Positions 8,993-64,000 of a stretch of DNA of 64,000 nt are shown here, in pieces. The notes under the pieces were generated by a model. It was not told the origin of the DNA. It was given only the letters and a program-made list of their open reading frames with translations, and searched no databases. The position numbers and the translations under genes are program-made. Positions within the stretch are counted from its first letter, which is position 1; the number at the start of each line of letters is the position of its first letter. The stretch comes from Symbiodinium sp. CCMP2592 (lineage: Eukaryota > Sar > Dinophyceae > Suessiales > Symbiodiniaceae), in NCBI GenBank assembly GCA_905221615.1, contig CAJNDT010006008.1, forward strand, positions 224,001-288,000. Direction: 5' to 3'.

Positions 8993-9009
8993 CCTGTGTA
9001 TATATACAT

Positions 9010-9040
<31 letters not shown>

Positions 9041-40140: not shown

Positions 40141-40141
40141 C

Positions 40142-40270
40142 CTTGCCTTTGTTCGAGAAGATGTGGAGCAAGACCTGAGGCGGGGCCTGCGAGTGTTGGC
40201 CTGTGCCAGTGGTCATGTCATTCAGCACTTTCAGTGTCATTTTGCTCAGTCAATCAATGAAGGCCGTTAG
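40142..40270 (+). CDS. Possible C-terminal exon cut by the gap
   Basis: Directly after the gap the + strand is open for 42 codons (LAFVREDVEQDLRRGLRVLA and onward to INEGR) and ends in TAG at 40268-40270. The composition is protein-like, with an amphipathic charged stretch. The upstream part would lie in the gap. I do not recognise the product, and the open length is short enough to be chance. Confidence 0.3.
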   Translation, partial: LAFVREDVEQDLRRGLRVLACASGHVIQHFQCHFAQSINEGR

Positions 40271-40512
40271 CAGAGTCAGCAAAACCTGCTCGCAGAACGA
40301 CGACAACACAGGAAGTTGCTCAGAACAACCACATCGGGTCAACTGTTAAATCTCATTGTATTGCTACTGTGTTCATAGTGCAATGACAGCCAGACAATCA
40401 AAGTTAAGTTCAATGACTAGTCACCAGTCAGTACCTTAGTCGTCGTATTACAGTAGTGTCAGTTTCGAGAAGTTCAGATAATAAGAAATCATTGCTTTAC
40501 AGAGCCAGAGTC

Positions 40513-41158
40513 ATGGCTGGGTTTGCCTGCCGTTTGTGCGGTGCCAGAACGTTTCGGCGCAAGCCGAATAACTACTGTGAAGGCTGCCGCAGTAGTCATC
40601 GCGGGCGACACAAGAAGAAGCCATGCCGTAGACTGCGTCTCAAAGTGTCAGTTGACCAGGAGGGTCATGCCAAGCCTGAGGGCAGTGTCAAATATCAATG
40701 GTCTGGTCCGTCTGCTACAGCAATGACAGAGTCAGCAAAGACACCTTGTGGGAGAACCACATCCCGGGTGCAGAGTGAACCTCGATGTGGGACAGCGTCA
40801 GAGCCTTTGCCAGCACACTCTTCTGAAAGTCAGTGTCATGATGGCGCCTCCTCTGCAGTGTCAGAACACCCAGTAGCGACGACTGGGATTTACCAGACAA
40901 TGCGGTTGAGGCTCGAGAGTCAGATTGCTGAGCTGAAAAGCTTATTCGGTGATGCTGTTGCCTATAGTGTCATCGCTTCAGCAATGTCAATCGTGGAACG
41001 ATTTGAGCGTCATGGACAGCAGCTGCCAGGATGTGTCAGAAGCCTCGTCTCATTCTCGTTTGCCTGTTCCAGTGTCAAAGACGAAGACGAGTGCCGCAAG
41101 AAATATTTGGCAGTGTCAGTCGAAAAAAAGCTCACGACCGTGAAGAACATGAGAGCAG
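40513..41158 (+). CDS. Zinc-ribbon-like hypothetical protein, first exon
   Basis: The ATG at 40513 opens a 215-codon frame. Near the N-terminus are two Cys pairs, CRLC (residues ~6-9) and CEGC (~23-26), in a basic context: a plausible four-Cys zinc ribbon. A strongly basic segment follows (RGRHKKKPCRRLRLK), then a Ser/Thr-rich low-complexity middle and a more structured C-terminal part (IYQTMRLRLESQIAELKSLF). The frame continues to a stop at 41217, but AG|GTGAGTG at 41158/41159 is an excellent splice donor, so I end the exon there. The acceptor was not located. The four-Cys cluster suggests nucleic-acid binding; function unknown. It could be the N-terminal exon of the transposase-like gene that follows. 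Confidence 0.5.
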
Positions 41159-42851
41159 GTGAGTGTCACTGGGCTATGGGGTGCCCTTTTAGTAGACAAG
41201 ATGGACTGCCAGAGTAAGCGTCAAAACAGTCAGTGCTCTGAATGCTGCCATCGTCACGACAGTCATATCAATTTAAGATCAGCCAGCATTTCATTGCCAA
41301 ACATGACCCACTGCTGTGACAGGCCTGTGGTGATCTGCCTGTGGATGAGTGATGAGTCAGCCAGAGCCCCGTCTGACTGCACTAAATTAAATAAGATATA
41401 TAATAATTCAGGAGCCGTTGCTGGTTTCAGGAAATTCAGAGTCTTATCTTGCCCCATTTGGCTGGGTGCCTGCAAGCTTTTGCCAGGTAGCGAGCTGGAG
41501 CACCTGGTGTGGATAGCCCTGTGCTGTTTTTCCCTGTGTAAAACCGAATTGAGAGCCACAGTCCTTTCCTGTTCGCGGCATGTCCCATTCGCCGCTAGTA
41601 GTTAATCTTCCAATAATTCCACTAAGTAGCACTTTGTGCGGCAAGTCCCATTCGCTGCCAGAGCTCACAACTACTAGTTGTCTTTGTTGTCTTCAGCCTC
41701 AAGCCTTAGATTCCAGCAGCAATAACAAATAGAGTCAAACTCAGTGGCATATGTTGGCTTACTTGAGCCCCATGGCAGCATGCATGTACCAATCGAAGCC
41801 TAGCAGGGCATCTATCGCAGGCAAGTGGCAGGTCATGTTCATGTCCCATCCCCTCGGTTCCTCAGATCTTCGAAACAGTCAGTATAAGTATTACCCATGG
41901 TCAAGTGTCAGATCACTGTGTTGTTTTTTGCAAAAACCCAACTCGCACCCAAGTCGCACACTAATATTTTAGTCACAGGTTGTCAGCCTGACCGCACAGT
42001 GCCACTTGCTCAGTCTGTGTGTGGGTGTGCACTGCGAGCGTTGGTGTGCTGCCGCTTGTTTCTATCTACACCCAGTGTCATTGGGCCAGGAGATTTTCGA
42101 CAGCTGAGGGGTTTCTGGTCTTTGAGACTTGACAAGTAGGATTTCAGTGTCAAGCAATTCTGATTCAAATTGTCATTCTTGAGTCCCTTAATAATAATAG
42201 CATGGAGCAGCCAACTGCTTCAGGTGTTGAAGCCCTTTCGCCGGCGGATGCCCAGCGGGTCAGCAGGCCTTCTTGGCACGGTTGCACTGTTGTGATTTAT
42301 AGTCCTCTGCCAGGTTTGCTCCAATTGAATACAAGCGGGGCAGCAGAGACGCCTTAGCAATTTGCTGCTGCGGAGATGTCATAATGAGTAAGTCCTGTCT
42401 CGCGATCCAAAATTCTGCCTTGAACACATTAATGGGAGCCACTTGGCCAAAATACGACAATGAGCCGTCCGCAACAGTAGGTAATTTTGGATCCGTTGAA
42501 GTTATTTGGATTCTCAGTGATTCAGGTCAGTCAAAGTCAACATTCAAAGGATTCTTCAGATAGCACACGGTGTGGGTTGGAAACAGTGTGTCTCCAAGAA
42601 GTGTCAGCAACTGAGCATTTCAGAACAAACAGCAGAGTCAGAGTCATCGCTGCCATGCTGAGACGTGCGCATTGTGCACCCTCCAAACTGCAGAAGTGTT
42701 ACGACAACAAGGTGTTCCCTTCGTCTGGCAAAGTGTCAACTTCCATGGTCAGAACTCGTTCTGCTGCAGCTGCAGAGTCAGCACTTCAAGTTTCCTGCTC
42801 GGACAGACCAAGAGTCAGAAGCTGGCATCTGCACATGGCACCAAGAGAAAG
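41159..42851 (+). other. Probable intron / intergenic stretch, GTCA-rich
   Basis: After the donor at 41159 no convincing coding frame appears for about 1.3 kb. GTCA words are still frequent (for example near 41170, 41260, 41900-42000 and 42140-42170). A frame at 42487-42855 (122 codons, ending MAPRER) may be coding but is unrecognised. Confidence 0.4.
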
Positions 42852-45800
42852 ATGACAGCTTTCAACAACACCAGTGTCAGCGTCCAGACAGAAAGCAATG
42901 GCAAGTGTCATGACGAGTTCGATCAGTCCTGTCCAAGATGTTGGTTCCAGAGATTCAGAGTCAAATGGTGTCAGAGTCACGGCTCTTTTCTGCAGACACG
43001 TGCTGGCAAGAGGGTCAGAGTCACATGGCTCCAAGAAAGACCCAAGAAAATGGGAGGGCCATGGGGTCTCGGATGTGCTGCCTGCGCAGCCCTTCGAGCA
43101 CGCTCTCTCAGTGTCAAGGTCACAGGCAGCAGGAAGAGTCATCGCTGGGATTCCAAATGGGCCAGATATGAGATCCGAGCACTGAGTCAGATGCAAGCGT
43201 CAGCGTTGTACCAGCACTCGCAGTGTCAGATGCACCGACGAGCAGTGCATATGATGCAGTGTCCGGATGAGCCTCTCAGTTGCAGCGTCATGATGCCTCG
43301 AGAGGACGAGGATCGACTGAAGGGTCATGTTCCTGAGTTGGCAGACTGGCTTCGTGCGTGGAGGATGGTGCAGAGCCCAGTGTCATTCTTGAAAGCAGAG
43401 TGTCAGTCCCGGACCGAGTCGTTCATCGGACTTCGCCAGGGTCAGTGCTCGCGAAAAATGTACAAGCAGATGGTTCAGATCATGACAGAAGTCACTCGCA
43501 GGCGAAAGCGAAGTGTCATTCGGTCAGCAAAGTTTATTTCAGTGTAGTTGGATGACAAGGCCCCCTTCAGGGTCATTCGCTTCAGAGCAGTTGCTGGCGA
43601 GAGGAAGTCCTCTGAAGACGAATCCGAAGAGTCACACTGCCCTGTCTTCACCGGCGTCCTTGCAGTTCTCACACACCATGGAAAAGCGTCAGAGACGGAT
43701 TTGCAAGATCTGGAAGAAGACTACAGTGTGAAGGTTTCTGACAGTGTCAAGGTTGGCATTGAGAAGCTTTCCGTGGTGCTTGATGAAGAGTCAGTCGACC
43801 TTGACTTGGTGACACACTTCCTCTCGAGTGTCAGATCCTGCTCGACAGACGGAGCGAAATGTATGAAGAAAAGCATGAGTGTCATGCGAGCAACTTGCCT
43901 GCCGAACCTCCAGATCAGCGTCATAGACCGGGCACATCAGTTCAGACGTGCTGGCTTGCCACTGACAATGGAGAGTCAGTTTGCAGAGTTTTTGCAGCAC
44001 TTCTGCAGAGTCATTCCGAGTTTGCAAAACTCGGAACAGTGGAAGCTCAAGTTCCGAGCGATCCAGGCTGAGTGTCAGCCTAACTCTTCGCACAGTGAGA
44101 GTGTCAAGCGTGCAATCAGCACCCTGAGCTTTGCCACACAGCGTTTCGACAGCTGTGCTAAGCCACAGAGTCAATATGTTCGGCTCCTGGAGCCGATTGC
44201 TCTGCTTCTCGCCTACCAAGCGTCAGATGTCAGGCTTACACCAAATATGCGATGGAGTTGTCAGCAACTCCTTGAGCAAATGACAGCGAAGCACGTCTTG
44301 ACAGCAGGAGTGTCTGCCGACTTCCACTGTGAACTCCTCAGGGTCATTCTGTGACGTTGCCGACCACGACATCAGCAAGTGTCAAGCGGAGAAAGACGAC
44401 TTTGTCCACAGGGTCACAAAGCTTTTCATAGAAGGCCACGTGCTCGCAGATCTTCCAGCTTCAGCAACAGGGTCAGATGAAACCACATGGTCTTTGTTGG
44501 CTGTGCAGAATGCCATGAAAGCGTCAGCTGTAAGCTATTCTGGAAAGCTGCACCATTTGTGGGGACCTTTGTCCAAGAAACAGTGTCAAGATGTCATGCA
44601 GTCGGTTTCCGCTGCTGCTGATGCCTGCATTGCCATAGTCAATGCCGACCACCACACTGGTGACCTGCACATGGTGTTTACAGTCTTCGACTTAGTGTCA
44701 TGGGACAAAGCCAAGCGAGCTTTGGATCGTGGAGAGTCAGATACGTGGCAGCAACTTCTGCAGATGGCTCGCATTCGCTTGAAAAAGCTGTACCTTGGAT
44801 CGGCTTAGTCCGTTTTTTGTGTCATCCAAAACTTTGATTATTAAAGCTTACAGTCATGAGTTATTCTTGATGCGCTGGATTCCAGATTCAGGTCAAGAGC
44901 TGTCAATGTCAGCAGTTCAGATGCTTTTCAGCAGTTCGAAGGAGTCATGTCAGAGTTGGTGTCAGATCCTAGCACAGTGTCAAAAGCAGCGAAACAGCAC
45001 GACAACAGACCTGCCTGGGCCAGGGTCCTTGGGATTGGCACTGCACTGCAAGGCAGTCGTCATTTGACATTGTCAGATGCACTCCCTCAGATAGTGTCAT
45101 TTTACCTGTCCATCTTGGACGGGGAATGTTGTGTGGAGAGAGATTTGAGTCTGCTGCGCAATTTCCTGCAAGTGTCAAAGGGTCCACTTGACTTGGATGG
45201 CATTACTGTGTCAGACCTGCTTGAACTTCGATTGGATGGGCCCAAGGAAGAGTCAGAGGTGGCCACCCCCATTCATGTCCCTGGGTACAGTGTGAACGAA
45301 GCCGATGTGTCAGAGTCAAAGACCTTGTCGTTCACACAGTTTACACGCGATTGTGCTGACCTGTGGCTTCAGCGTCATGGCAGGCGCGTTCGAAGCTACA
45401 AGCAGAGAGCTGACAAGGGCACTGTCAGAGTCAAGAAGAAAGGGACCTTCGCTGCACTGCAGCAGAGTCAGAGAGCAGGAATCCGAACTTTAGTGTCGGG
45501 CAAGGCCCCTGAACAAACATTTTTCGGGTTCAGTGTCAAGGAAGTGCACCGGAAGGAGTGTCACAAGATGGAAAAAACCCCAAGTGGAACAAGGCATTGC
45601 AGGACTTCCACAGAGTCACTGTCCTCCGAGAGCAGAACAGCCAGGTGGAGCGTCAGAGAAATATGCTCAGAATCAAGCCAAGTCTTCCACCGCTACGGAG
45701 AGGCAGTGTCATGAAGCAATATTCTGGACAGTTTCATGTTACAGTGCCACAGTTTGGAGACAACGATTTGGTTCTGGACTTGACCAAAGACGGTGTCAGT

Positions 45801-45947
45801 GACATTCCCTCCATCGTCACATACAAGCGTCCTCGAGAATTGGCCAAGGTCGACTTTTCAGAGGTCAGGAAGGCAAATCTTCTTGTGGTCGATGACAGTG
45901 TCAAAATGGAACAGCTCCGTTCATCGAATCTCGATTGTGAGGCTTAA
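42852..45947 (+). pseudogene. Decayed hAT-like transposase-type gene (dinoflagellate multi-copy family)
   Basis: Collinear fragments make up one protein family that I recall as highly multi-copy in dinoflagellates. The N-terminal zinc finger has CAAC (Cys-x2-Cys) followed by HSQCQMH (His-x5-His) with WARYEIRALSQMQASALYQH between, like TTF/BED fingers of hAT transposases. Next come LDDKAPFRVIRFR, the STDGAK and DRAHQFRRA blocks, and near the C-terminus GECCVERDLSLLRNFL, similar to the hAT C-terminal ER motif. Breaks: TAG at 43545-43547 inside the conserved block just before LDDKAP; a frame change near 44335-44350 between ELLRVI and CDVADHD; a probable 102-bp GT-AG intron (44790-44891); and a frame change at the A6 run 45572-45577, after which KNPKWNKALQDFHR restores the family text. 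The last frame ends at 45947. Domain identity is moderately sure; transposase activity is unlikely. Confidence 0.55.
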
Positions 45948-46207
45948 TGACCAGTATCGGATTTGTTTGTTGAGATGGGTTATTTAATTAATAATAATTG
46001 CTACAGTTTACAGAGTGTCAGAGAATACTAAGTTTAATTTAATGTGTGTCACTTTAATATTATTCAATACACAGTCAATATTTAAGTGTGTTGGCCCGGG
46101 CTTGATCATTTTCCCAAAACGATTGATTCATGTAGTCAGGTCTGAGACTAAGACCAACACTTGATAAGTGCAACAACCTTCCAAATACCTCAAGGCTTGG
46201 CAGTGTC
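45948..46207 (+). other. AT-rich spacer
   Basis: AT-rich (TTAATTAATAATAATT and similar), few GTCA words, no open frame. Probably the 3' flank of the preceding gene and the 5' flank of the next. Confidence 0.5.
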
Positions 46208-46604
46208 ATGGCCTATCTGACTCTGGTGGCATATGGTGGTGGCTTGATCGGGAAGAAAGACTGGCAGAGTCAGTCCAGGATGGAAAGTATCAGACACTAC
46301 AAGCCCGCAGCATTCACTGGAGAGTCAATAATATTTTGTCTAACCCCAGTGTTTCAGCACAACTACCCGAGTGTCAGCAGAGTCATGAAACACATTTGCC
46401 AAAATCGTGAATCTGTTTGGACACTCAGTTGTCAGGCTTCAGAAGCCCGCTTTGAGATAAGTGACTTAAAGTCACTACACACTGCAATGGCAGCAGTCAG
46501 GCGTTTGTGCCCAAGGCGACAGGTGCCTGGAAAGAAAGGCAATGCTTGGCACTTTGGAGTGTCAGCTCCAGTAGCCAAGAAGCCAAAAACAAGGGTCAAG
46601 AAGG
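46208..46604 (+). CDS. Hypothetical exon, basic C-terminus
   Basis: The ATG at 46208 starts a 133-codon frame (MAYLTLVAYGGGLIGKKDWQ ...) ending in a Lys/Arg-rich tail (VAKKPKTRVKKG). AAGG|GTTAGTGTC at 46604/46605 is a possible splice donor just before the stop at 46607-46609, so this may be an internal or first exon of the larger gene downstream. No recognised domain. Confidence 0.45.
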
Positions 46605-46704
46605 GTTAGTGTCAGTGTCAATCCTACCTAGAAGAGACGAATAGTACGAGCCTTCTCTACTAGTGTTTGTTAGACACTAACCTTTCTGAGTTTCCTTCAC
46701 TCAG

Positions 46705-47335: not shown

Positions 47336-47337
47336 AA

Positions 47338-47530
47338 GGTATTGGCATATGCATACTGGGTATGCCAATATACCTCGATCGTTGGCGCCAACGGCCGAGG
47401 TATTGGCATACCCAGTATGCATATGCCAATAGCGTCAACACTTGTCTGAGCTCTTTGAGGTATTGGCTCATGCGTTCTGCACATGTCAATAGGTCGGCCG
47501 TTGGCGCCAACGATCGAGGTATTGGCGTAC
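47338..47530. repeat. 60-bp-period array of nested palindromes
   Basis: AGGTATTGGC starts at 47338, 47398, 47458 and 47517. The 31-bp text at 47340-47370 (TATTGGCATATGCATACTGG ...) is exactly the reverse complement of 47401-47431. The 26-bp text within 47373-47400 (CCTCGATCGTTGGCGCCAAC ...) is the reverse complement of 47494-47519. The GTTGGCGCCAAC core is itself a perfect palindrome. Very strong cruciform or hairpin potential just upstream of a coding exon. Confidence 0.9.
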
Positions 47531-47605
47531 CCCAGAACGTAAAGAGTCGCAGATCTTGCCATCTAGGATCATTCGAGCCACTAGCACAGAGTCAGTGTCA
47601 TCCGC

Positions 47606-48060: not shown

Positions 48061-48185
48061 TTAGCAACAGATTTAGTATGCCAGTGTTTCTTAGGGGATT
48101 TTATACGCAGACGTCTGACAAATCTAGACAGTGTCAGTTTTATGTTGTAGTTTGATTTGACCATTGATGTCAGTGTCAGTGTCAG

Positions 48186-49604
48186 GTGCACCAACAACTT
48201 CCAGAGCGACTCCAGAGTCATGGCCAGAAGCTGCATGACATCCCGCCCTTGGAGATCACATGTGACAAGGCCAGAGTCACGAACTACAAGGAGGTGTGGA
48301 ACCCTGACAATTGCAGTGTCAGTGTCACAAGAACCTCGATGTATGAAGCTGGTGGATCCATCTACTGGCTGGACCCGTTTCCCTTGTTTCTCCAGGGTCA
48401 GGGTCATCCGGGCCACAACCGTCTTCTTCTTGAAGAACCTTCGGTGTCAGAGGTCATGGAGGTTCAGACTGCCTTGATGCACAGTGTCAGCAACAACTCC
48501 AAGAAAGTGTCAGGAGTCAGGCTGCATTTCTCAGACCCGTTCCTGGCAGAGTCAAAAGATCTCGGTCGACTTCCTGTGTGGCCTAAAGGGTTGCAGCTCA
48601 TTGCAGGGTCAGCCAGGCTTTTCGCTTGGTACTTGAGCATGGGCCAGGCTGTGGATGAAGAGTCAAAGGCCACTGTGCTACCGCCCCTGGAAGAGTCAAG
48701 AGTCTGGGAGCTCCACACAATGGCCTTGAGTGTCACGATTCGGGAATTCAATCTTGATGAGAAAGAGTTAATCATAGAGGCCTTGAAGCACTCAGAGAGA
48801 GTCAGGGTCGGTGCTTTGGCGGATAGCTTCCACACCTTCGCAAAGAGGGTCAATGCGATCGCGTCTGAGGGCAGCCAAGCATCTGTGTTGAAGCGCTTTG
48901 AAGAGTCAGGTGTGAAGTTCAATGGTCAGAGAGTCAACACGACCATGTTGCAGGGTGCGATCAAAGTGGCCTCCCTAATGACAGAGTCACCTGGCATAGA
49001 GCAGACCCTGATCCAGATTCAGCGTCAATTCGGCCGTGATGTTTGGAGCAGCTCCTACACCAAGTTGTCACGACTTGTACAGCTATGCTCGAAGCAGTTG
49101 TCATTGTTTGGTTGGCAACCACAAGAGTTAGGGTCACTGGTGCAGTTCTGTCTGGATAGCTGCTTAGTGTCACTCCTGAGGGAGCACTGCGACACCAGCT
49201 TCTACACCCTAGGAGTCATCGACAAGGCTGGTGGTGGGGGCTGGGCACAGACCACATGTGTCAAGGCCTTCCTTCTCAAAGTTGTCATGGACATGGTGAA
49301 GGTTGCTTCGTCCCAGGGTCACAGCAGCGCACCCAATCCTGAGAGTGTCAAGCTCATGAAGGCCTTGCAGAAGATCAGCAGTCCTTTGCGGTTTCATGAG
49401 TCACTACCCTTGGAAACAGGGTCAATGGTCGATGCCTCCATGTCAGATGAAACTCTGACTCTCGGTGAAGTGTCAGAGAAGAACGAGAACAAGGCCGACA
49501 TGCCTGCCATGGAGAGAGTCAGTGGCGATCTTTGCAAAGCCGGCAAGTTGTCATGCGAGCTCTTCCGTGCCCTCCTGGAGTGTGATTTCGAGAATGACCT
49601 CAAG
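48186..49604 (+). CDS. Large dinoflagellate-family protein, exon A
   Basis: The frame is open for about 473 codons after an acceptor-like GTGTCAG|GTGCACC at 48185/48186. The predicted protein is globular and mostly helical. Recognisable family landmarks are GGSIYWLDPFPLFLQGQGH (near residue 60), HSVSNNSKKVSGVRLHFSDP, and LQLIAGSARLFAWYLSMG. I recall this arrangement from multi-copy uncharacterised dinoflagellate proteins whose C-terminus has a methyltransferase-like motif (see exon B). The frame hits TGA at 49617. A GC-type donor, AAG|GCACGT at 49604/49605, paired with the acceptor TTCAG|GC at 49708/49709 joins exactly in phase to exon B. GC-AG introns are common in dinoflagellates (established). 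The alternative is a one-step frameshift near 49616. Confidence 0.6.
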
Positions 49605-49708
49605 GCACGTCCTCAGTGACAGTGTCACTTTTTGTGCATGAGAGACATGTAGTAGTGTCACACACATGTGGTTCCTTTGTGAAAGCATGCCTGCATCCGC
49701 TGATTCAG

Positions 49709-50977
49709 GCAGCTGTCAACTTCAAAGATCCGCTGGAGTGTCTGCTGGAGGACTCCAAGTCCAAGAAAAGCTGCACCGAGCTCGCAGCGTCAGTGTCAGC
49801 CACAGTGACAGCTCTGACGAACCTCACCTCTTCGAGTGTCACTGCCTCCACTTCACCTCCAGTGTCATTCCGTGAACTTGTTCGGCGAACTTCGAACCCA
49901 AATGACGATGAAGTTGAAGAGTCAGATCGTAAGAAGGAACGCCAACATGTCTGGTCACAGGGTCAGAAGCTCCGAAGAGAGCATTGTCAACTTGGGATTT
50001 GTGCAGGCAAGTCGAAAGAGTCACTGAAGACACTGTTCGACAAAACAAGTGTCAAGTCGTGGAGCGGTAAGCTCAACGAGAGTCACCGGCTTTTGGTCTT
50101 CTCGATGGACCTCTTTGTCGATGGCAAGAATGCCTGGAACCGCCTCCCGAGTGTCAACAGTGACGACGTCACCCCTTTTTTCGACTACCTCAACAAGTGC
50201 CACGTCCAGAAAGAGTCAGACTTTATTCTGCTGCTGGATGGATGCTCTCGAGAGTCACGAAAGCTCATCGAGGCTCACTTCCCCAAGAGTCACGAGTTTG
50301 GCATCTTCTACTCAAACCGCAAGAGGGTCAGCACCCGGGCAAGGAAAATCTTTGCTGGGTCAGAGTCATTTGAGCGAGGCTATTTGATCCCTCCTGTCCC
50401 CCGTGTCAAGATCAGTGTCAAGGACCGGACAGACGAGTTCCAAGCACCCTGGAAAACCACCGACAAGAAGTCAGGCAAGCGTCAGAAGACTACCACCCAC
50501 GACCTCAATTTCTTCGGTGTCCCCCAAGTGTCATGCCGGCCCAAGATCAGCCTCGAGAAGAAGCAGCAGATCTTCGCAGGGTCAGACTGCCCTCCCAAGC
50601 ATGCGAGTGCCAGCTGCCCTCTCTTCTACCAAGAGACCAAGAGTCAGGAGTTGTGGAGAGCCCTCCTTGGGGCCCTGGACGTGTCATGTGTTGTGGACCT
50701 CACACCAGGGTCAGGCTGCCTGGGTTGTGGTTGTCTGGAAGACGGGCTCAGTTACGTGAGCGTCACTCGACATGAAGTTCACAACTCATGGTTGTCAAAT
50801 GTTCTCGACCTGAAGGCTCTCCAGCTCATAGCGTCAAAGGACAGCGACTACTTCGACCAAGACTTGGGCCCACTGGTCGAAAATCACTTCGCAGATGTCA
50901 TCCTCGAGCAGCTGAACGAGGGTGATGCTGACTCAGAGTCAGAATCAAGTGCGGCCGAAGATGGTGATGACAGGTGA
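49709..50977 (+). CDS. Large dinoflagellate-family protein, exon B with methyltransferase-like TPGSG motif
   Basis: Continues exon A (AAVNFKDPLECLLE ...) for 422 codons to the TGA at 50975-50977, giving about 895 aa in two exons. A basic linker (RKKERQHVWSQGQKLRREHC) precedes a conserved-looking domain (HRLLVFSMDLFVDG, DFILLLDGCSRESRK). The C-terminal domain has CPLFYQETKSQELWRALLGA, then VVDLTPGSGCLG, similar to the AdoMet-binding motif I (D-x-F-x-GSG type) of DNA methylases, and ends in a very acidic tail (DADSESESSAAEDGDD). No DPPY/SPPW catalytic motif is visible, so enzymatic function is not shown. A cytosine methyltransferase gene follows 950 bp downstream on the same strand. Coding status is strong; function unknown. 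Confidence 0.65.
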   Translation, partial: AAVNFKDPLECLLEDSKSKKSCTELAASVSATVTALTNLTSSSVTASTSPPVSFRELVRRTSNPNDDEVEESDRKKERQHVWSQGQKLRREHCQLGICAGKSKESLKTLFDKTSVKSWSGKLNESHRLLVFSMDLFVDGKNAWNRLPSVNSDDVTPFFDYLNKCHVQKESDFILLLDGCSRESRKLIEAHFPKSHEFGIFYSNRKRVSTRARKIFAGSESFERGYLIPPVPRVKISVKDRTDEFQAPWKTTDKKSGKRQKTTTHDLNFFGVPQVSCRPKISLEKKQQIFAGSDCPPKHASASCPLFYQETKSQELWRALLGALDVSCVVDLTPGSGCLGCGCLEDGLSYVSVTRHEVHNSWLSNVLDLKALQLIASKDSDYFDQDLGPLVENHFADVILEQLNEGDADSESESSAAEDGDDR

Positions 50978-51928: not shown

Positions 51929-52390
51929 ATGGTTTTCTTTCGTGACCATGGAAAGCCGCAGTCGCAACCATTGCAGTGTCTCAACAGCTGGGTTCGCCCA
52001 ATGCTCTGCCAGTGTCAGTCCTCGAGGACTTCCTGGCTCCAGGAACATGGTCTGAGAGATGCGAGTGTCAGCTCCGTCCATCTTGATGTGGGCACGGATT
52101 GCAGTGGGGCTGATGCCCCGATCTTTGCACTGCACGCCCTCGGACTCAGTGTCACTCACAAGTTCGCTTCAGACAAGATGAAACATTGTCGAGACTGGAT
52201 TGTGCAGACGTCAAAGCAGCGGGGCCAGAGTCAGCCACAAGTTTTCGAAGACATGGTCAGTCGCCACCCTAGTGAACTGCCCAGTGTCAACAGCTATGAC
52301 TGTGGTTTCCCTTGCAAGCCGTGGTCAAGACTCAACAACAGGAGTCTCTTTTTCGAGAGTCAGGACTTTGCTCCCTTCAAGGCCGGGCGG
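51929..52390 (+). CDS. DNA (cytosine-5) methyltransferase, exon 1
   Basis: The ATG at 51929 opens the N-terminal half of a C5-MTase catalytic domain. AdoMet motif I is LDVGTDCSGADAP (residues ~52-64), followed by the motif II-like acidic position ASDKMKHC and motif IV YDCGFPCKPWS with the catalytic Cys at about residue 129. PCK replaces the commoner PCQ. The family transfers methyl from AdoMet to C5 of cytosine in DNA, presumably in the nucleus. The exon ends KAGR at 52390, before GTAATG. Translation into the intron would stop after two codons. The spliced protein is about 518 aa, a typical size for a stand-alone catalytic domain with no regulatory N-terminus. Neighbouring genes are from multi-copy families, which fits the known capture of such enzymes by dinoflagellate retroelements, but no reverse transcriptase is visible here. 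Confidence 0.85.
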
Positions 52391-52628
52391 GTAATGTAAC
52401 ACCAGTGGCAGGGTCATTCGGTAAGCTGTTCCCTGTAGTGTAGCATCCTGCAATGGGCTGACACATTGATATGACACATTAATAGTCACTACTTAGCAGA
52501 GTATCTCATTTTGGTTTCAATATTATAGATATTTAATTGGCTTAAATTGAATTATTGTTTTTGTTGCCTATAAATAAGTAGCAGATATAATATATAATAA
52601 TTTTATGAATTACAATACATCAATGCAG
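52391..52628 (+). other. Intron of the cytosine methyltransferase gene (238 bp, GT-AG, phase 0)
   Basis: Starts GTAATGTAAC and ends ATACATCAATGCAG|GC. AT-rich, especially in its 3' half, against the GC-balanced exons. Joining 52390 to 52629 keeps the frame and places ALTPALAIFENVVGI immediately after FAPFKAGR, the spacing expected between motifs IV and VI. Confidence 0.8.
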
Positions 52629-53723
52629 GCTATGCTGGAAGTGACTCTGGCCTTGACACCAGCGTTAGCCATTTTCGAGAACGTTGTCGGGATCCTGCGG
52701 TTCATCTCCGACATAGCGTCAAGGATGCAGTGCCTGAGGCCATATCGCCTGTTCCACTTTGTCGTTTGCCCGACGATGCTGGGACATAGTGTCAGGCGTC
52801 CAAGAGTTTATATTTTGGCACTGAGGAAGGACCTTTTGATCACAGACAATGTAGAGTCGCTTCAATCATTGGGTTGCAAAGTTTTCAACTCTATGAAGCG
52901 CCCTTTGAGTGTCAGCCTACATGATCGTCTTTTGGGGAAGGATCATGAGCTACAGAGTCTTTATCCAGAGAAAGAGAAGTGTCAGAGACTCCAAAAACCC
53001 AAGCCCACAACATGCAAGACTAGAGTCAGAGGGAAAAGGCCACCTGTCCAAGAGTGGGAGCGTGAGCATGCTGTGTTTCGAAAAACGCACCGACTGGACA
53101 CTTGCAGAGTCATAGCTGGTGGTGACTCTGGACTCACACCGCGGATGAAAGACGCACTGCAGCTGACATACCAGTGTCACAGCAAGGATGACTTGGTTGT
53201 GGATGTGTCACAGTCTCTTGGCCGCGGTGCCTGGGCTTGTGATGGCTACTGCCCTTGCATCACTCCAGGGTCAGTGCTGTACAGTGTCAAAAGCCAGAGT
53301 GTCATTACCCCTATGGAGAAGATGATTCTACATGGTTTCCCAATGGACCAGCTGGAACCGGTGTCGATAACAAGCAGTCAGCTGTCAAGCCTTGCAGGCA
53401 ACACCATGTGCCTCGGCAAATGTCGTTTCGAAACCTATATCAGTAGTGCCATAAAAACCACCCCACCTCACACAGCGACAGCCCAGGCACATCGAGGTCG
53501 TCGCAGCGGTCACACTGGTGGGTCTGAGCCTTCTCAGAGTCAAGGACATGCGAAACAATGGACGGCCAGTGTTACCAGACAACTTCGACAAGGCTTTGCT
53601 TCTACCACTCTTTGCAGAGTCACAGTCACTACCGAATCAGAAGGGTTCAAGAAAGAGAGTCAGGAGGGTGCTTGCGAAGAAGACCAAGAAGAAGCTCGGC
53701 AAGAAGTCAAGAAAGTCTGCTAG
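52629..53723 (+). CDS. DNA (cytosine-5) methyltransferase, exon 2
   Basis: Begins AMLEVTLALTPALAIFENVV, containing motif VI with ENV (catalytic-site Glu, about residue 171 of the spliced protein). Motif VIII follows as GHSVRRPRVYILALRK, with the Arg-x-Arg pattern. A Lys/Arg-rich target-recognition region (EKCQRLQKPKPTTCKTR) comes next. Motif IX/X text is VITPMEKMILHGFP and LSSLAGNTMCL. All core C5-MTase blocks are therefore present in canonical order, suggesting a functional fold. The frame runs on to a stop at 53721-53723, but after about 53455 the text becomes low-complexity, and an overlapping frame gives a better Lys-rich tail (next feature). The true 3' end is uncertain. Confidence 0.85.
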   Translation, partial: AMLEVTLALTPALAIFENVVGILRFISDIASRMQCLRPYRLFHFVVCPTMLGHSVRRPRVYILALRKDLLITDNVESLQSLGCKVFNSMKRPLSVSLHDRLLGKDHELQSLYPEKEKCQRLQKPKPTTCKTRVRGKRPPVQEWEREHAVFRKTHRLDTCRVIAGGDSGLTPRMKDALQLTYQCHSKDDLVVDVSQSLGRGAWACDGYCPCITPGSVLYSVKSQSVITPMEKMILHGFPMDQLEPVSITSSQLSSLAGNTMCLGKCRFETYISSAIKTTPPHTATAQAHRGRRSGHTGGSEPSQSQGHAKQWTASVTRQLRQGFASTTLCRVTVTTESEGFKKESQEGACEEDQEEARQEVKKVC

Positions 53724-53817
53724 GCATGAAGCGTCACGGTCTCGGACGAAGCTTCGGCGATCAACGTCTGGTTGGGGCAAGCGTTATGCACTGCACCGTG
53801 CTTTTGATGTCGATTAG
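53455..53817 (+). CDS. Probable alternative C-terminal exon of the methyltransferase, Lys/Arg-rich
   Basis: In the frame shifted relative to exon 2, the sequence from 53455 to TAA/TAG at 53815-53817 reads HIEVVAAVTLVGLSLLRVKD, then NNGRPVLPDNFDKALLLPLF, and closes with the strongly basic KTKKKLGKKSRKSARHEAS. This is more protein-like than the competing frame. It implies a second intron or a frameshift between the GNTMCL motif and about 53500. A basic tail would suit DNA binding or nuclear import (inference). Confidence 0.45.
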   Translation, partial: KPPHLTQRQPRHIEVVAAVTLVGLSLLRVKDMRNNGRPVLPDNFDKALLLPLFAESQSLPNQKGSRKRVRRVLAKKTKKKLGKKSRKSARHEASRSRTKLRRSTSGWGKRYALHRAFDVD

Positions 53818-57605: not shown

Positions 57606-57850
57606 TTTATACTGGACCTGACTTACCAATCAACAACATTCCTGTACCATTCATCCTCAGTGTCATCTCTGAGTGACACCCTGAGGTATCTTCTCCAGCG
57701 TCAAGTTTGCAAGGAACGTCACAGGAGCATGTCAAGTGGTTTCGGAGCACTCCATCAGGCAAAGTGTCATGGACAAGAACGACGTTTCCTTCACCTACTA
57801 CTGTGTGATGATAAAGGAGTGTCAAAAATGGCCTCCACAGTCGTCAGACT

Positions 57851-58256
57851 TTGTTCACAATGTTCAACTTCATGAAGACAAACACCAAGAGTCACGAACA
57901 GACCTACTGTGTGGAGGGTCATGACAACATCGTCTTGTTCGAATCAGTGTCAGATGCTGGCATGGCCTGGCGACTCCAGACCAAAGGTGTTCTCGGTTGC
58001 AATTGTTGTATTGCAAAGTTGTCATGGCCATCCGAAGTCTTGCTCCACCACTCCAGTCGTCAGCTGAGCCTGGATGTGGTTCCGCAGACGTCATGCTTTG
58101 TGGGCTATTCTGTCCTCACGGGCCAGAGTCAAGCTGTGAATGCTCTCCTCGACCATGCCACGGAGGTCAAGTCACAGTTTGTGAGGGTCAGGCTCACGTC
58201 CGAGGAATTCTTGGATCTCCGCCCCATCCTGTCGAAGAGTCAGGAAAACAGGCCAG
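57851..58256 (+). CDS. Hypothetical exon (GVLGCNC...DVVPQTSCFVGY)
   Basis: The frame encodes a compact domain: HDNIVLFESVSDAGMAWRLQ, GVLGCNCCIAKLSWPSEVLL, LDVVPQTSCFVGYSVLTGQS, then RLTSEEFLDLRPILSKSQEN. GGCCAG|GTATCA at 58256/58257 is a possible donor; otherwise the frame stops at 58289-58291. The upstream start is unresolved: other frames are open over 57660-57925. A weak memory links it to uncharacterised dinoflagellate proteins. Function unknown. Confidence 0.45.
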
Positions 58257-58712
58257 GTATCATAATTACTATTAAGTCCACGAGTGTCTAGTTTAGTAAA
58301 GATGGTGAACAGTAATAGTCGTTTTTTGCTAGCAGCAAACAAGTCGGCTAAGAACAATAACTGGCCATAATAAATATTCTAGACATTGAATTGTCATATA
58401 TTATTACATATTTTTTAAAGTACTTTTGTCAAACAGAATATTGAGTACAATATAGTCTTATTTATTATGAATAAGCAACACTTATCAGGATTTAACATGC
58501 CAACTTTTAAGTTTTACAATAATTATCACAATGTTTACAATATTGTATATATATATATATATGTCAGTTCGTGGTTTTCAATGAGGTCGTTTACATTCAG
58601 TTGCATTCGGTTGTCTTTGTATAACATGATAGGTCAAATTGCACCTTGCAGTCGTGTTGATGTCTGTTTTATTTTGAACATCCTAACATCTTTCTGCCCT
58701 CATCCTGGGCAG
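58257..58712 (+). other. Probable intron / spacer, AT-rich
   Basis: AT-rich with a short (TA)n tract at 58545-58562 and almost no GTCA words, in contrast to its flanks. Ends in the acceptor-like CTGCCCTCATCCTGGGCAG. Confidence 0.5.
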
Positions 58713-58908
58713 GAAGCGAGCGCTGGTCATGGAGACCCAGTCAGTGGTCAAACGATCGCTCGCAAAGACGGACCCAGATCTTGCCAAGGAAATCAGTGTC
58801 ACTGTCAGCACCAAGGATAGGGTCGGAGAGTCAAAGACTCCCCCGGCCACGCTTTTTGCTTCTGACATGGAAGACACAGCTGTCATTGCGTCTGGTGAAG
58901 ACCAGTGA
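58713..58908 (+). CDS. Short terminal exon after a good splice acceptor
   Basis: After CATCCTGGGCAG|GAAG the frame reads KRALVMETQSVVKRSLAKTD, then LAKEISVTVSTKDRVGESKT, and ends DMEDTAVIASGEDQ with TGA at 58906-58908. A charged, Ser/Thr-rich C-terminal tail. Even if read from its own ATG at 58729 it is only 59 codons. Probably the last exon of the gene at 57851, although the simplest donor (58256) does not join in phase, so the intermediate structure is unresolved. Confidence 0.45.
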
Positions 58909-59189
58909 GTGTCAGTCAGTGTCATCGTGTCGATTTTAGAGTCACGTGCTGGAATTTTGTTTCAGGTACCAGCAGGGCAGGACCCAGTGTCACATCGTCA
59001 TTGACATTGTCGAATAGTATGATTCAGTGTCAAACGGGGTCCGCTATTCTTTGCAAAACGCCAGAGTCAATCAGCTTGCCGTCAAAGTCAGCGTCATTCG
59101 GCAATTGAAAAGAAACTGCAGGTGTCAGTGCCTGCTTCCGCCATGTGCTTTTGTTTTTAACTGTCTGTCATTGCCTGCCCTTCTCAGGC
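58909..59189 (+). other. GTCA-rich spacer before the satellite
   Basis: No convincing frame. GTCA occurs about every 25-30 bp up to the first satellite-like unit. Confidence 0.5.
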
Positions 59190-62100
59190 CCACCTTTTGG
59201 AGATCAGTGTCAACTTGAAGCAGGCTTGGACGGGGTTTGCATTGGGTGCGTTATGGTACTGGCCACACAGAATGAGTGTCAAACGCTTCCATTGTGTCAG
59301 GCCTACCAGCTGGAAATCAGTGTCAACTTGGAGCAGGCATGGAGGGGTGCGTCTTGGGTGCGTTATTGTACTGGCCACACAGAATGAGTGTCACATGCTT
59401 CCATTATGTCAGGCCTATCAGGTGGAAATCAGTGTCAACTTTGAGCAGGCATGGAGGGGTGCGTCTTGGGTGCGTTATTGTACTGGCCACACAGAATGAG
59501 TGTCAAATGTTTCCACTATGTCAGGCCTACCAGCTGGAAATCAGTGTCAACTTGGAGCAGGCATGGAGGGGTGCGAATTGGGTGCGTTATTGTACTGGCC
59601 ACACAGAATGAGTGTCACACGCTTCCATTAAATTATGTCAGGCCCACCAGCTGGAAATCAGTGTCAACTTTGAGCAGGCATGGAGGGGTGCGTCTTGGGT
59701 GCGTTATTGTACTGGCCACACAGAATGAGTGTCACATGCTTCCATTCTGTCAAGCCTACCAGCCGGAAATCAGTGTCAACTTGGAGCAGGCATGGAGGGG
59801 TGCGAATTGGGTGCGTTATTGTACTGGCCACACAGAATGAGTGTCACATGCTTCCATTATGTCAGGCCTACCAGCTGGAAATCAGTGTCAACTTGGAGCA
59901 GGCATGGAGGGGTGCGAATTGGGTGCGTTATTGTACTGGCCACACAGAATGAGTGTCACATGCTTCCATTATGTCAGGCCTACCAGCTGGAAATCAGTGT
60001 CAACTTGGAGCAGGCATGGAGGGATGCGAATTGGATGCGTTATTGTACTGGCCACACAGAATGAGTGTCACATGCTTCCACTATGTCGGGCCTACCAGCT
60101 GGAAATCAGTGTCAACTTGGAGCAGGCATGGAGGGGTGCGAATTGGGTGCGTTATTGTACTGGCCACACAGAATGAGTGTCACATGCTTCTATTATGTCA
60201 GGCCTATCAGGTGGAAATCAGTGTCAACTTGAAGCAGGCATGGAGGGGTGCGTCTTGGGTGCGTTATTGTACTGGCCACACAGAATGAGTGTCACATGCT
60301 TCCATTCTGTCAGGCCTACCAGCTGGAAATCAGTGTCAACTTGGAGCAGGCATGGAGGGGTGCGAATTGGGTGCGTTATTGTACTGGCCACACAGAATGA
60401 GTGTCACATGCTTCCATTATGTCAGGCCTACCAGCTGGAAATCAGTGTCAACTTGGAGCAGGCATGGAGGGGTGCGAATTGGGTGCGTTATTGTACTGGC
60501 CACACAGAATGATTGTCACATGCTTCCATTATGTCAGGCCTACCAGGTGGAAATCAGTGTCAACTTGGAGCAGGCATGGAGGGGTGCGAATTGGGTGCGT
60601 TATTGTACTGGCCACACAGAATGAGTGTCACATGCTTCCATTATGTCAGGCCTACCAGCTGGAAATCAGTGTCAACTTTGAGCAGGCATGGAGGGGTGCG
60701 TCTTGGGTGCGTTACTGTACTGGCCACACAGAATGAGTGTCACATGCTTCCATTATGTCAGGCCTATCAGGTGGAAATCAGTGTCAACTTGGAGCAGGCA
60801 TGGAGGGGTGCGAATCGGGTGCGTTATTGTACTGGCCACACAGAATGAGTGTCACATGCTTCCACTATGTCAGGCCTACCAGCTGGAAATCAGTGTCAAC
60901 TTGGAGCAGGCATGGAGGGGTGCAAATTGGGTGCGTTATTGTACTGGCCACACAGAATGAGTGTCACATGCTTCCATTATGTCAGGCCCACCAGCTGGAA
61001 ATCAGTGTCAACTTTGAGCAGGCATGGAGGGGTGCGTCTTGGGTGCGTTATTGTACTGGCCACACAGAATGAGTGTCACATGCTTCCATTCTGTCAGGCC
61101 TACCAGCCGGAAATCAGTGTCAACTTGGAGCAGGCATGGAGGGGTGCGAATTGGGTGCGTTATTGTACTGGCCACACAGAATGAGTGTCACATGCTTCCA
61201 TTATGTCAGGCCTACCAGCTGGAAATCAGTGTCAACTTGGAGCAGGCATGGAGGGGTGCGAATTGGGTGCGTTATTGTACTGGCCACACAGAATGAGTGT
61301 CACATGCTTCCATTCTGTCAGGCCTACCAGCTGGAGATCAGTGTCAACTTGGAGCAGGCATGGAGGGGTGCGAATTGGGTGCGTTATTGTACTGGCCACA
61401 CAGAATGAGTGTCACATGCGTCCACTATGTCAGGCCTACCAGCTGGAAATCGGTGTCAACTTGGAGCAGGCATGGAGGGGTGCGAATTGGGTGCGTTATT
61501 GTACTGGCCACACAGAATGAGTGTCACATGCTTCTATTATGTCAGGCCTATCAGGTGGAAATCAGTGTCAACTTGAAGCAGGCATGGAGGGGTGCGTCTT
61601 GGGTGCGTTATTGTACTGGCCACACAGAATGAGTGTCACATGCTTCCATTCTGTCAGGCCTACCAGCTGGAAATCAGTGTCAACTTGGAGCAGGCATGGA
61701 GGGGTGCGAATTGGGTGCGTTATTGTACTGGCCACACAGAATGAGTGTCACATGCTTCCATTATGTCAGGCCTACCAGCTGGAAATCAGTGTCAACTTGG
61801 AGCAGGCATGGAGGGGTGCGAATTGGGTGCGTTATTGTACTGGCCACACAGAATGAGTGTCACATGCTTCCATTATGTCAGGCCTACCAGCTGGAAATCA
61901 GTGTCAACTTGGAGCAGGCATGGAGGGGTGCGAATTGGGTGCGTTATTGTACTGGCCACACAGAATGACGAGTGTCACATGCTTCCATTATGTCAGGCCT
62001 ATCAGGTGGAAATCAGTGTCAACTTGGAGCAGGCATGGAGGGGTGCGAATTGGGTGCGTTATTGTACTGGCCACACAGAATGAGTGTCACATGTTTCCAT
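59190..62100 (+). repeat. 112-bp satellite array, about 26 units
   Basis: The unit runs GTGTCACATGCTTCCATTAT, GTCAGGCCTACCAGCTGG, AAATCAGTGTCAACTTGGAG, CAGGCATGGAGGGGTGCGAA, TTGGGTGCGTTATTGTACTG, GCCACACAGAATGA. The anchor ACACAGAATGAGTGTCA recurs at 112-bp steps from about 59268 to 62076. Only two length changes occur: +5 bp (AAATT) near 59630 and +3 bp (ACG) near 61968. Units differ by a few substitutions; GAATTGGG and GTCTTGGG variants are interspersed. Each unit has three GTCA words. 112 is not a multiple of 3, so three successive units give overlapping 111-codon frames bounded by the same AATGA; these are not genes. Confidence 0.97.
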
Positions 62101-62146
62101 TATGTCAGGCTTACCATTCGCTTTGTCATGGCTGAAGTGTCAGCTG

Positions 62147-62221
62147 GCTCGCTCAGACCTTGACAGCTCGAGCAGTTTGACAGACCGTTAAGCTGCTCGA
62201 GCTGTCAAGGTCTGAATGAGC
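62147..62221 (+). repeat. Hairpin H1
   Basis: CAGACCTTGACAGCTCGAGC at 62154 pairs perfectly with the reverse complement ending at 62214. The outer GGCTC..TCAGACC/GGTCTGA..GAGCC bases extend the stem, and inner TTGAC/GTTAA pairs with one G-T step. Confidence 0.9.
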
Positions 62222-62480
62222 CGCTCGCCGCTTGGCTGGTGCTATGACTCTGTTTTGGTTGATGATACCTTTAAGTTTGCCAAGTGTCACCATGTCGACG
62301 ACAGTTCACTAAAGTCAGGTCTTCCTCCTGGGCATCAGTGTCAACTTAGAGAAGGCACGGATGGAGGGGTGCGTGTTCGGTGCGTTAGTGTACTGGCCAC
62401 ACAGAACGAGTGTCAAGTGATTCCGTTATGTCAGGCTTACCGTCTGCTTTGTCATGGAATGAAGTGTCAGCTGGCTCTCT

Positions 62481-62539
62481 CAGACCTTGACTCCTCGAGC
62501 AGTTTGACAGACCGTCAAGCTGCTCGAGGTCAAGGTCTG
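62481..62539 (+). repeat. Hairpin H2
   Basis: CAGACCTTGACTCCTCGAGC against GCTCGAGGTCAAGGTCTG with a 2-nt bulge. The inner loop stem is TTGAC/GTCAA. Confidence 0.85.
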
Positions 62540-62784
62540 AATGAGCCGCTCGCCGCCTGGCTGGTGCTACTCTGTTTTGGTTGATGATTCCTCTGCCAAG
62601 TGTCACCATGTCGACAAGCAGTTACGGTGCAGTGGATGTCGATGAGTGTCAATCCATTAAAGTCAGGTCCTCCTCCTGGACATCAGTGTCAACTTGGAGA
62701 AGGCAGGCAGGTTTGCGTATTGGGTGCGTTATTGTCCTGGCCGGTCAATTGCTCCTTAATGTCAGGCTTACCAGCTGGACATCA

Positions 62785-62861
62785 GTGTCAACTTTGAGCA
62801 GGCATGGAGGGTGTGTGTTGGGACCCAATAGGCCCCCTCCATGCGTGCTCAAAGTTGACAC
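62785..62861. repeat. Inverted copy of the satellite unit (palindrome)
   Basis: GTGTCAACTTTGAGCAGGCA (then TGGAGGG) is followed after ~23 bp by its reverse complement CCCTCCATGCGTGCTCAAAG then TTGACAC, with one mismatch. This is an inversion within otherwise head-to-tail satellite. Confidence 0.9.
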
Positions 62862-62869
62862 ACCTACCA

Positions 62870-63415
62870 GCTGGAGATCAGTGTCAACTGTGACAAGGCA
62901 GGCAGGGGTGCGTATTGGGTGCGTTATTGTACTGGCCACACAGAATGAGTGTCAAATGCATCCACTATGGCAGGCCTTCGTCTTGGAGATCAGTGTCAAC
63001 TTGGAGCAGGCATGGAGGGGTGCGTCTTGGGTGCGTTATTGTACTGGCCACACAGAATGAGTGTCACGTGTTTCTATTATGTCAGGCCTACCAGCTGGAA
63101 ATCAGTGTCAACTTTGAGCAGGCATGGAGGGGTGCGCATTGGGTGTGTTATTGTACTGGCCACACAGAATGAGTGTCACATGCTTCCATTATGTCAGGCC
63201 TACCAGCTGGAAATCAGTGTCAACTTGGAGCAGGCATGGAGGGGTGCGAATTGGGTGCGTTATTGTACTGGCCACACAGAATGACGAGTGTCACATGCTT
63301 CCATTATGTCAGGCCTATCAGGTGGAAATCAGTGTCAACTTTGAGCAGGCATGGAGGGGTGCGAATTGGGTGCGTTATTGTACTGGCCACACAGAATGAT
63401 TGTCACATGTTTCCA
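62870..63415 (+). repeat. 112-bp satellite, second block (about 5 units)
   Basis: The same unit resumes, with anchors near 62940, 63052, 63164, 63276 and 63391. The unit at 63276 has the same +3 ACG insertion seen at 61968, so the end of the first block and this block share ancestry. Confidence 0.95.
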
Positions 63416-63470
63416 TTATGTCAGGCTTACCATTCGCTTTGTCATGGAATGAAGTGTCAGCTGGCTCGCT

Positions 63471-63531
63471 CAGACCTTGACTCGTCGAGCAGTTGGACAG
63501 ACCGTCCAGCTGCTCGAGTGGTCAAGGTCTG
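63471..63531 (+). repeat. Hairpin H3
   Basis: CAGACCTTGACTCGTCGAGC against GCTCGAGTGGTCAAGGTCTG. The inner loop stem has changed to TGGAC/GTCCA on both sides. Confidence 0.85.
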
Positions 63532-63783
63532 ACTGAGCCGCTCGCCGCATGGCTGGTGCTATGACTCTGCTTTGGTTGATGATTCCTCTGCCAAGTGTCA
63601 CCATGTCGACGACAATTCACTAAAGTCAGGTCTTCCTCCTGGGCATCAGTGTCAACTTAGAGAAGGCATGGATGGAGGGGTGCGTGTTCGGTGCGTTAGT
63701 GTACTGGCCACACAGAACGAGTGTCAAGTGATGTCAGGCTTACCGTCTGCTTTGTCATGGAATGAAGTGTCAGCTGGCTCGCT

Positions 63784-63842
63784 CAGACCTTGCCTGTTGG
63801 AACAGTTTTTCGGAGAAAAACTGTTCCAACATGCAAGGTCTG
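63784..63842 (+). repeat. Hairpin H4, stem replaced but still paired
   Basis: CAGACCTTGCCTGTTGGAAC then AGTTTTTC, loop GGA, GAAAAACTGTTCCAACATGC then AAGGTCTG: a 28-bp stem with one mismatch. Only the outer nine pairs match H1-H3; the inner stem has different sequence on both arms. Confidence 0.9.
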
Positions 63843-64000
63843 AATGAGCCGCTCGCCGCCTGGTTGGTGCTATGACTCTGTTTTGGTTGATGATTCCTCT
63901 GCCAAGTGTCACCATGTCGACAAGCAGTTACGGTGCAGTGGATGTCGATGAATGTCAATCCATTAAAGTCAGGTCTTCCTCCTGGACATCAGTGTGAACT

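Follow-up and report, generated by a model that had tools for sequence, protein, structure and literature searches.

The stretch of DNA analysed here (the window) comprises 64,000 nucleotides of the genome of Symbiodinium sp. CCMP2592 and corresponds to C5146:224001-288000 in the 1.10-Gb assembly. Its right part is occupied by a copy of a giant DNA transposon, in which the short word AGNGTCA, the fuller form of a GTCA word (frequent version CAGTGTCAG), is present at high density and almost entirely on one strand. An earlier account based on the letters of the window alone (the sequence-only reading) had described the right contig (40141-64000) as saturated with GTCA. As shown below, the word belongs to a single family of giant DNA transposons in this genome; the observation was right and its frame wrong. 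The following features were assigned (window coordinates, with the copy on contig C8 used for comparison):

40041-40140, no strand: assembly gap of 100 N replacing the 5′ 9.3 kb of the element (run of N; window position 40141 aligns to C8:21423)
40141-64000, + strand: window copy of the giant transposon with terminal inverted repeats (alignment with the C8 copy; sharply bounded word map)
40417-41217, + strand: open reading frame (ORF) of 266 amino acids (aa) with a Cys-pair motif, zinc-finger-like by eye, and an Arg/Lys-rich N-terminal part (from the sequence)
42615-44808, + strand: candidate transposase ORF, fragmented in the window copy (single ORF of 777 aa in the C8 copy)
44860-45714, + strand: ORF following the candidate transposase, 362 aa in the C8 copy (from the sequence)
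48168-50977, + strand: gene of a dinoflagellate protein of unassigned function, two ORFs with a probable short intron between them (homologues P0001 and P0002)
51968-53811, + strand: gene of a C5 cytosine DNA methyltransferase, aligned in three blocks with probable introns between them (Pfam and tblastn)
59184-63921, + strand: 3′ subterminal 112-bp repeats carrying the word (tandem repeats finder rows 59184-62116, 62863-63432 and 63328-63921)

The transposon was delimited in the C8 copy, which extends from 12150 to 46456 (34,307 bp), is bounded by imperfect terminal inverted repeats of the form CTGGG...CCCAG (CTGGGCTGTGCTTTCGG / CTGGGATGGGCTTTGGC) and is flanked at both sides by ACAT, as judged by eye; one base differs near its 3′ tip, and by this base the 3′ ends of the C8 and C164 copies are unlike. 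All 16 copies for which both flanks were read begin with CTGGGCTGTGCTTTCGG and finish with GCCAAAGCCCATCCCAG, and 15 of the 16 flank pairs are compatible with a 4-bp target duplication, which measures exactly 4 bp in 13 copies and falls within longer, ambiguous matches in simple repeats in two. With the 3′-terminal 246 bp as query, 40 of 53 candidates were scored, at 93-100% identity, and all of them stop within 2 bp of one common position. A 301-bp query spanning the 5′ end gave 40 long matches (40 of 60 candidates scored, 98-100% identity), which, the query's own locus aside, begin at query bases 20-31, and at base 30 or 31 in 25 of 40 cases. Pairing of the ends by contig resulted in 22 pairs lying about 13-14 kb or 21-62 kb apart, distances that were obtained by subtraction of coordinates among scored ends and may include nested cases and gaps. 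An imperfect palindrome near the 5′ end (L015 2287-2349, corresponding to C8:12287-12349), where bases 168-230 of the query match their own reverse complement, occurs in the 40 copies scored and is a possible structural or regulatory site.

Identity between the C5146 and C8 copies is 99.5% in one aligned stretch of 16.4 kb and 99% in another of 7.2 kb. Four further copies, covered with 9 kb each, are 99.1-99.9% identical to C8 (aligned pieces longer than 400 bp) and contain AGNGTCA 116-134 times in forward and 1-2 times in reverse orientation. The only diverged copy among those compared is that on C164 (L022-L024, 165-187 kb), which is about 89-96% identical to the C5146 and C8 copies in the main alignments, breaks off on the 5′ side inside the candidate transposase ORF, next to AATATT-rich repeats, and contains about 4 kb of inserted GC-rich DNA (0.60) with two forward words and no reverse word. 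On C4984 a derivative of 13.6 kb was found that is without the long ORFs of the element and keeps the word-rich ends (AGNGTCA 190 vs 2); its core of 2.6 kb has no match to the C8 copy and contains the word once in each orientation. The four other short copies tested all contain a 501-bp piece of this core at 93-99% identity, so this foreign piece is common to five of five non-autonomous derivatives of 13-14 kb sharing the ends of the element, and the derivative has proliferated. Loss of the long ORFs is thus compatible with retention of the arrays.

Taken together, the imperfect terminal inverted repeats, the 4-bp duplications, the near-identical dispersed copies and the short derivative define a giant DNA transposon that was apparently active recently. 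The lack of the 5′ part in the window and C164 copies had suggested a 5′-truncated retrotransposon without long terminal repeats, which was dropped in view of the fixed 5′ ends, the inverted repeats and the 4-bp duplications. Helitrons, which have neither terminal inverted repeats nor a target duplication, were ruled out, both being present here.

A recount of 48181-48780 gave exactly the 17 GTCA and 3 TGAC reported in the sequence-only reading, and its intervals of 30-60 bp with doublets 6-7 bp apart were confirmed. Over 40141-64000, GTCA occurs 544 times and TGAC 102 times (1-12 TGAC per 2 kb, expectation 6-8), and in the left part of the window (1-40040) the counts are 101 and 91. With the satellite left out, GTCA is preceded by the A and by the G in 67% of cases each, T or A is preferred at N, and C is favoured upstream and G downstream of AGNGTCA. 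The full word was counted 319 times on the + strand and 9 times on the − strand in 40141-64000, or 245 and 6 times if the satellite from 59184 is left out; in the full window, both strands together contain 338 copies compared with 36 ± 6 after shuffling, and none of 100 shuffles was as high. In the C8 copy 528 forward and 10 reverse copies were found, i.e. about 15 per kb or one per about 65 bases, and in strand asymmetry AGNGTCA is far ahead of every other word of the same shape. On one strand it extends through the copy, the first site lying 80 bp from the 5′ terminus and the last about 160 bp from the 3′ terminus. Its density per kb is 14-20 in four ORFs, 16-25 in the tandem arrays and 10-11 across the methyltransferase region and the 6 kb behind it, and is lower in AT-rich parts. 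At the end of the 112-bp array the word steps are 44/68 bp. No phasing of the sites at 3, 10, 10.5 or 11 bp (helical or codon) was detected in the C8 copy.

The word is confined to islands with sharp edges. The 14-mer AGTGTCAGTGTCAG has 88 occurrences on one strand of the genome and 94 on the other, against 61 and 54 for its reversed control, and of eight loci excised around it two, one per strand, were word-saturated. Islands were mapped on C5146 (beginning at the gap and ending at about 288.6 kb), C8 (12.2-46.3 kb) and C164 (165.5-187.2 kb), the last carrying the word on the opposite strand in accordance with the orientation of the transposon. Host DNA outside the islands contains AGNGTCA 19 times forward and 32 times reverse in 149 kb, a sample that consists of window 1-40040, the rest of L011 and ten 10-kb loci on three contigs and leaves out the loci chosen by AGTGTCAGTGTCAG as well as C1186:57-70 kb. 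In the 14 kb at the island edges one forward and one reverse copy were counted, and in the six AGTGTCAGTGTCAG loci outside the element (3 kb each) 0-4 forward and 2-6 reverse. Relative to the element, the 149 kb of host DNA are poorer in the word by a factor of about 100, and a genome-wide or contig-wide bias was rejected. GTCA saturation thus holds for 40141-64000 and is no property of the contig, being bounded by the transposon ends; nor does it stem from host chromatin or host mutation, given that the strand flips with the transposon, host DNA is so much poorer and inserts are nearly free of the word. The possibility raised in the sequence-only reading that the excess is confined to recent repeat copies applies to the identified saturated stretches, which represent one recent repeat, and not to a satellite on C1186 described below. 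A three-word pattern matched at least 120 viral contigs, none of them saturated among the matches listed (top value 5.6 words per kb in a 2-kb piece).

Host DNA has a second word-saturation puzzle of its own, as telomere-like words occur throughout it on both strands (AAACCC 179 and GGGTTT 132 times in window 1-40040, and also in host loci L009, L010, L012-L014, L021, L025 and L026). The element part of the window contains 5 AAACCC and 8 GGGTTT, and TTTAGGG / CCCTAAA occurs in most flanking stretches and was found nowhere inside the three islands. The host part of the window furthermore includes a 1-kb tandem array of the ATATACAT type (8476-9500).

The window copy covers the element from about 9.3 kb to near the 3′ end and runs about 740 bp beyond the window to C5146:288743; it starts 9.3 kb into the element because the 5′ part falls at the 100-N gap, and the 5′ terminal-repeat string was not found in the 64-kb window. 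In the C8 copy these 9.3 kb comprise the terminal repeat of the 5′ side and, near it, about 11 tandem units of 325-330 bp. Downstream come the long ORFs, the methyltransferase, the 112-bp array and finally the 3′ terminus. All ORFs with homologues, as well as the longest ones, lie on the + strand of the C8 copy; open frames on the − strand reach 280 aa and are without support. The product of the 266-aa ORF, for which no Pfam match was obtained, is a candidate DNA- or RNA-binding protein. The 777-aa ORF, which in the window copy is interrupted by an in-frame stop ending at 43547 and a frame break within 44302-44354, is a candidate for the transposase gene; a peptide-pattern search for it in viral contigs found nothing. 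The ORF at 44860-45714 is perhaps the C-terminal part of the same gene, and its VERD-type segment has a likeness, by eye only, to hAT C-termini. The second ORF of the gene at 48168-50977 is 47% identical to P0001 and 27% to P0002; the first (48168-49619) gave no protein match at E 0.001, and its product resembles the N-terminal half of P0002 by eye. For the methyltransferase gene, tblastn alignments to P0003-P0009 were obtained together with a match to Pfam PF00145 (E=0.0011) that at 19 bits lies under the cut-off of 22. Inverted repeats of a TATTGGCATA-type unit were seen by eye within the element at window 47345-47540.

Six ORF stretches contain AGNGTCA 96 times; shuffling of synonymous codons, which left the protein and the codon usage unchanged, gave 16.1 ± 3.4. 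In 14 tblastn alignments to the nine proteins P0001-P0009, in which a single site may count repeatedly, residues touched by GTCA were identical to the homologue in 139 of 362 cases (38%) and other residues in 1090 of 2610 (42%). Because of this near-equal match and the excess over the codon shuffles, the word is seen to be placed largely at positions that the protein permits, and in four ORFs of the C8 copy its sites occupy 115 of 168 synonymously possible positions. Codon bias and protein constraint as causes were rejected on these grounds, and insertion of the word into genes is unsupported, since homologue alignments pass straight through the word sites. Protein sequence and codon use fail to explain the word, which therefore acts at the DNA or RNA level, as had been concluded from the sequence alone; its occurrence in all codon phases was likewise confirmed.

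The steps between the 115 sites in these four ORFs have a mean of 52 bp and a coefficient of variation (CV) of 0.53. Random placement resulted in a CV of 0.97 ± 0.09 (0 of 1000 draws down to 0.53) and draws from the synonymously possible positions, on the assumption that the proteins are not themselves shaped by the word, in a CV of 0.77 ± 0.06 (0 of 2000 down to the observed value). Steps of 8-25 bp were observed 6 times, with 19 ± 3 expected from the possible positions, and steps of 7-24 bp are also depleted in the wider unique region (11 vs 47 expected) despite a random-like CV there. The spacing resembles that of sites each covering about 50 bp, with the 6-bp doublets as the exception. Its quasi-regularity in ORFs argues against a simple context-dependent mutation bias, one of the explanations first proposed, while a self-recognition mark and a binding site, also on that list, survive.

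The explanation favoured here, at about even odds (a probability of roughly 0.5), is that AGNGTCA forms an oriented array to which a protein encoded by the element would bind, marking or compacting the giant transposon. The element itself is demonstrated, and for its mechanism we infer the following. The binder would be a product of the element, either the candidate transposase or the product of the Cys/Arg-rich ORF, and a one-way array, with sites about 50-75 bp apart over most of its length, would allow it to recognise, coat or compact the element. In this way the protein could bring together the ends of a transposon of 13-60 kb and distinguish the element from the surrounding host DNA. Selection would act on the lineage of active elements, where a new site would be profitable only inside a gap, resulting in regular spacing and synonymous codon choices; dead resident copies and newly inserted DNA would be neither maintained nor brought to the pattern. 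Resident copies decay nearly like ordinary DNA, with 180 words common to C5146 and C164 over 15.8 kb and 17 and 14 private, and if the word is a binding site the pattern must therefore be kept in the active lineage. This explanation is supported by the sharp island edges and the flip of the strand with orientation, by the common termini of the scored ends, the terminal repeats and the target duplications, by the one-sided abundance of the word in element copies and its scarcity in host DNA, by the spacing in the four ORFs, and by an array density before and after the genes that is similar to the density in ORFs (16-25 vs 14-20 per kb). It also fits the derivative, which retains both word-rich ends without the long ORFs, and the reported size cost of DNA transposition, the efficiency of which falls as the distance between terminal repeats grows, according to a review (PMC6431247).

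Several observations weigh against such an array. Binding of a protein to the word is putative, neither the 777-aa nor the 362-aa ORF has a transposase domain in Pfam or PHROGs, and the outermost 80 bp (5′) and 160 bp (3′), where known subterminal repeats cluster, are without the word. Orientation on one strand is expected of an RNA signal and requires for duplex DNA the extra assumption of a polar complex. Owing to long gaps, the CV in the wider unique region is 0.96 and random-like (null 1.01 ± 0.07), and the null of possible positions depends on the assumption about the proteins named above. Differences between C5146 and C164 amount to 3.1% at the specified word positions and 3.7% elsewhere, which is no strong conservation, and one of the 16 copies, C5073, has no target duplication. 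Finally, the array gives no account of a word-rich satellite at C1186:57-70 kb (L027-L028), which contains 82 forward and 18 reverse AGNGTCA in 13 kb, consists of nested repeats of about 33 bp and 75-80 bp unrelated to the element and gave no blastn match to the C8 copy; either the word is shared by chance or it has a second user.

The single strand is explained even more simply if AGNGUCA in unidirectional transcripts of the element is a site through which an RNA-binding protein recognises or protects these transcripts, and the homologue-bearing and longest ORFs do lie on the strand with 528 of the 538 word sites. Exons of Symbiodinium genes have a median length of only 65 and 68 bp in two species (PMC5890265); the word spacing is close to this length, and long intronless ORFs might need marks. 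Such a role in RNA, the main rival, is nevertheless less likely than the DNA array, and the same applies to the functions proposed with it, namely export, splicing control or escape from silencing: the highest density of the word is that of the 5′ tandem array, which precedes the long ORFs, the word continues through the 3′ array, and both arrays are retained in the derivative without long ORFs. The word is also contained in two probable introns with inferred boundaries (one copy within 238 bp and two within 101 bp), yet introns are part of the pre-mRNA as well. An improbable alternative starts from the relative of C5 methyltransferases encoded by the element, which might mark the C of GTCA, the word accumulating as a self-mark or by a repair ratchet like that proposed for HIP1 of cyanobacteria. 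HIP1 is a precedent as a short iterated word linked to methyltransferases, in that HIP genomes carry matching enzymes and the ratchet model has HIP words spread via methylation and mismatch repair until further sites are immaterial (PMC4390886). It is, however, palindromic and genome-wide at about 1 per kb, HIP-type words reaching 1000-2000 per million bases (PMC4390886) and being about ten times rarer than the word here, whereas AGNGTCA is polar and element-bound at about 15 per kb. An iterated word of the HIP1 type was rejected on the non-palindromic sequence and the 19/32 copies in 149 kb of host DNA. Methyltransferases of Symbiodinium retroelements are moreover reported as de novo CG enzymes (PMC5890265).

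Still less credible is that a mutation bias of the element's copying mechanism writes the word. One-mismatch neighbours of AGNGTCA are in excess on the + strand when pooled (183 vs 95), as expected of intermediates, with the exception of AGNGACA (6 on +, 17 on −), the sole clearly +-depleted one among 18; conversion of a single precursor word was rejected, as this deficit is too small for about 240 words. The regular spacing in ORFs speaks against such a bias, as do the match to homologues at residues touched by GTCA, nearly as frequent as elsewhere, and the inserted DNA in two copies (C164 and C4984) that was left unconverted. That the pattern is an artefact of sequencing or assembly, or a chromatin motif used throughout the host, is barely conceivable. 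An assembly gap does lie at the start of the window copy, but copies are present on many contigs and in both orientations, with long open frames and proteins that have homologues, and a host-wide motif is already contradicted by the near absence of the word from the host DNA sampled.

Known transposons share single traits with the element. The hAT superfamily has 8-bp target duplications, in contrast to the 4 bp here; no Pfam match to a hAT C-terminal dimerisation domain or a BED finger was found in the element ORFs, the resemblance being by eye only. For the proposed binding-site array, the nearest precedent would be the subterminal repeats of Hermes (hAT), a transposon which likewise has terminal inverted repeats and many copies of a short word, and whose transposase binds them with BED fingers (17 and 14 putative sites at the two ends; PMC10368747). 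Unlike in Hermes, the word of the element spans nearly the whole 34 kb including ORFs in a single orientation, and the target duplication is 4 bp, not 8 bp (PMC10368747). Giant cargo-bearing transposons, among them Teratorn, Terminons, enlarged En/Spm elements and Starships, are similar to the element in their tens of kb and several genes and differ in ends and genes. No element-wide oriented word is mentioned in the sections of the review considered here (PMC6431247). Cytosine methyltransferases within Symbiodinium mobile elements were described by de Mendoza et al. for LINE and DIRS retrotransposons (SymbioLINE-Dnmt and SymbioDIRS-Dnmt3; PMC5890265), from which the present element differs by its terminal inverted repeats and 4-bp duplications. 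No Pfam match to a reverse transcriptase was obtained in the element ORFs scanned, short ORFs being left out. No paper on a GTCA motif in dinoflagellates or Symbiodinium was found in the open-access full texts searched, so that the element may already be published elsewhere, and among the matches listed for giant or Symbiodiniaceae transposons in the parts of the open-access literature covered there was no such element.

In the general view, a DNA transposon requires signals in its sequence near the ends only. Hermes, for example, requires a few hundred bp of end sequence (PMC10368747). Here, one oriented signal extends nearly throughout a 34-kb element, with the genes accommodating it mostly by synonymous codons. 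We tentatively propose, at somewhat less than even odds, that a eukaryotic transposon rewrote itself near end to end, genes included, as a polar, quasi-regular array for its own nucleoprotein. If true, this would constitute a self-chromatin that identifies the element and permits transposition at 13-60 kb, a whole-element counterpart of subterminal repeats, in a type of nucleus described as packaged mainly by non-histone proteins (PMC11071213). If the signal is a protein-binding array, it would offer a testable answer both to the pairing of ends in very large DNA transposons and to self-marking by a mobile element. The element also represents directional, element-only DNA for the study of dinoflagellate chromatin.

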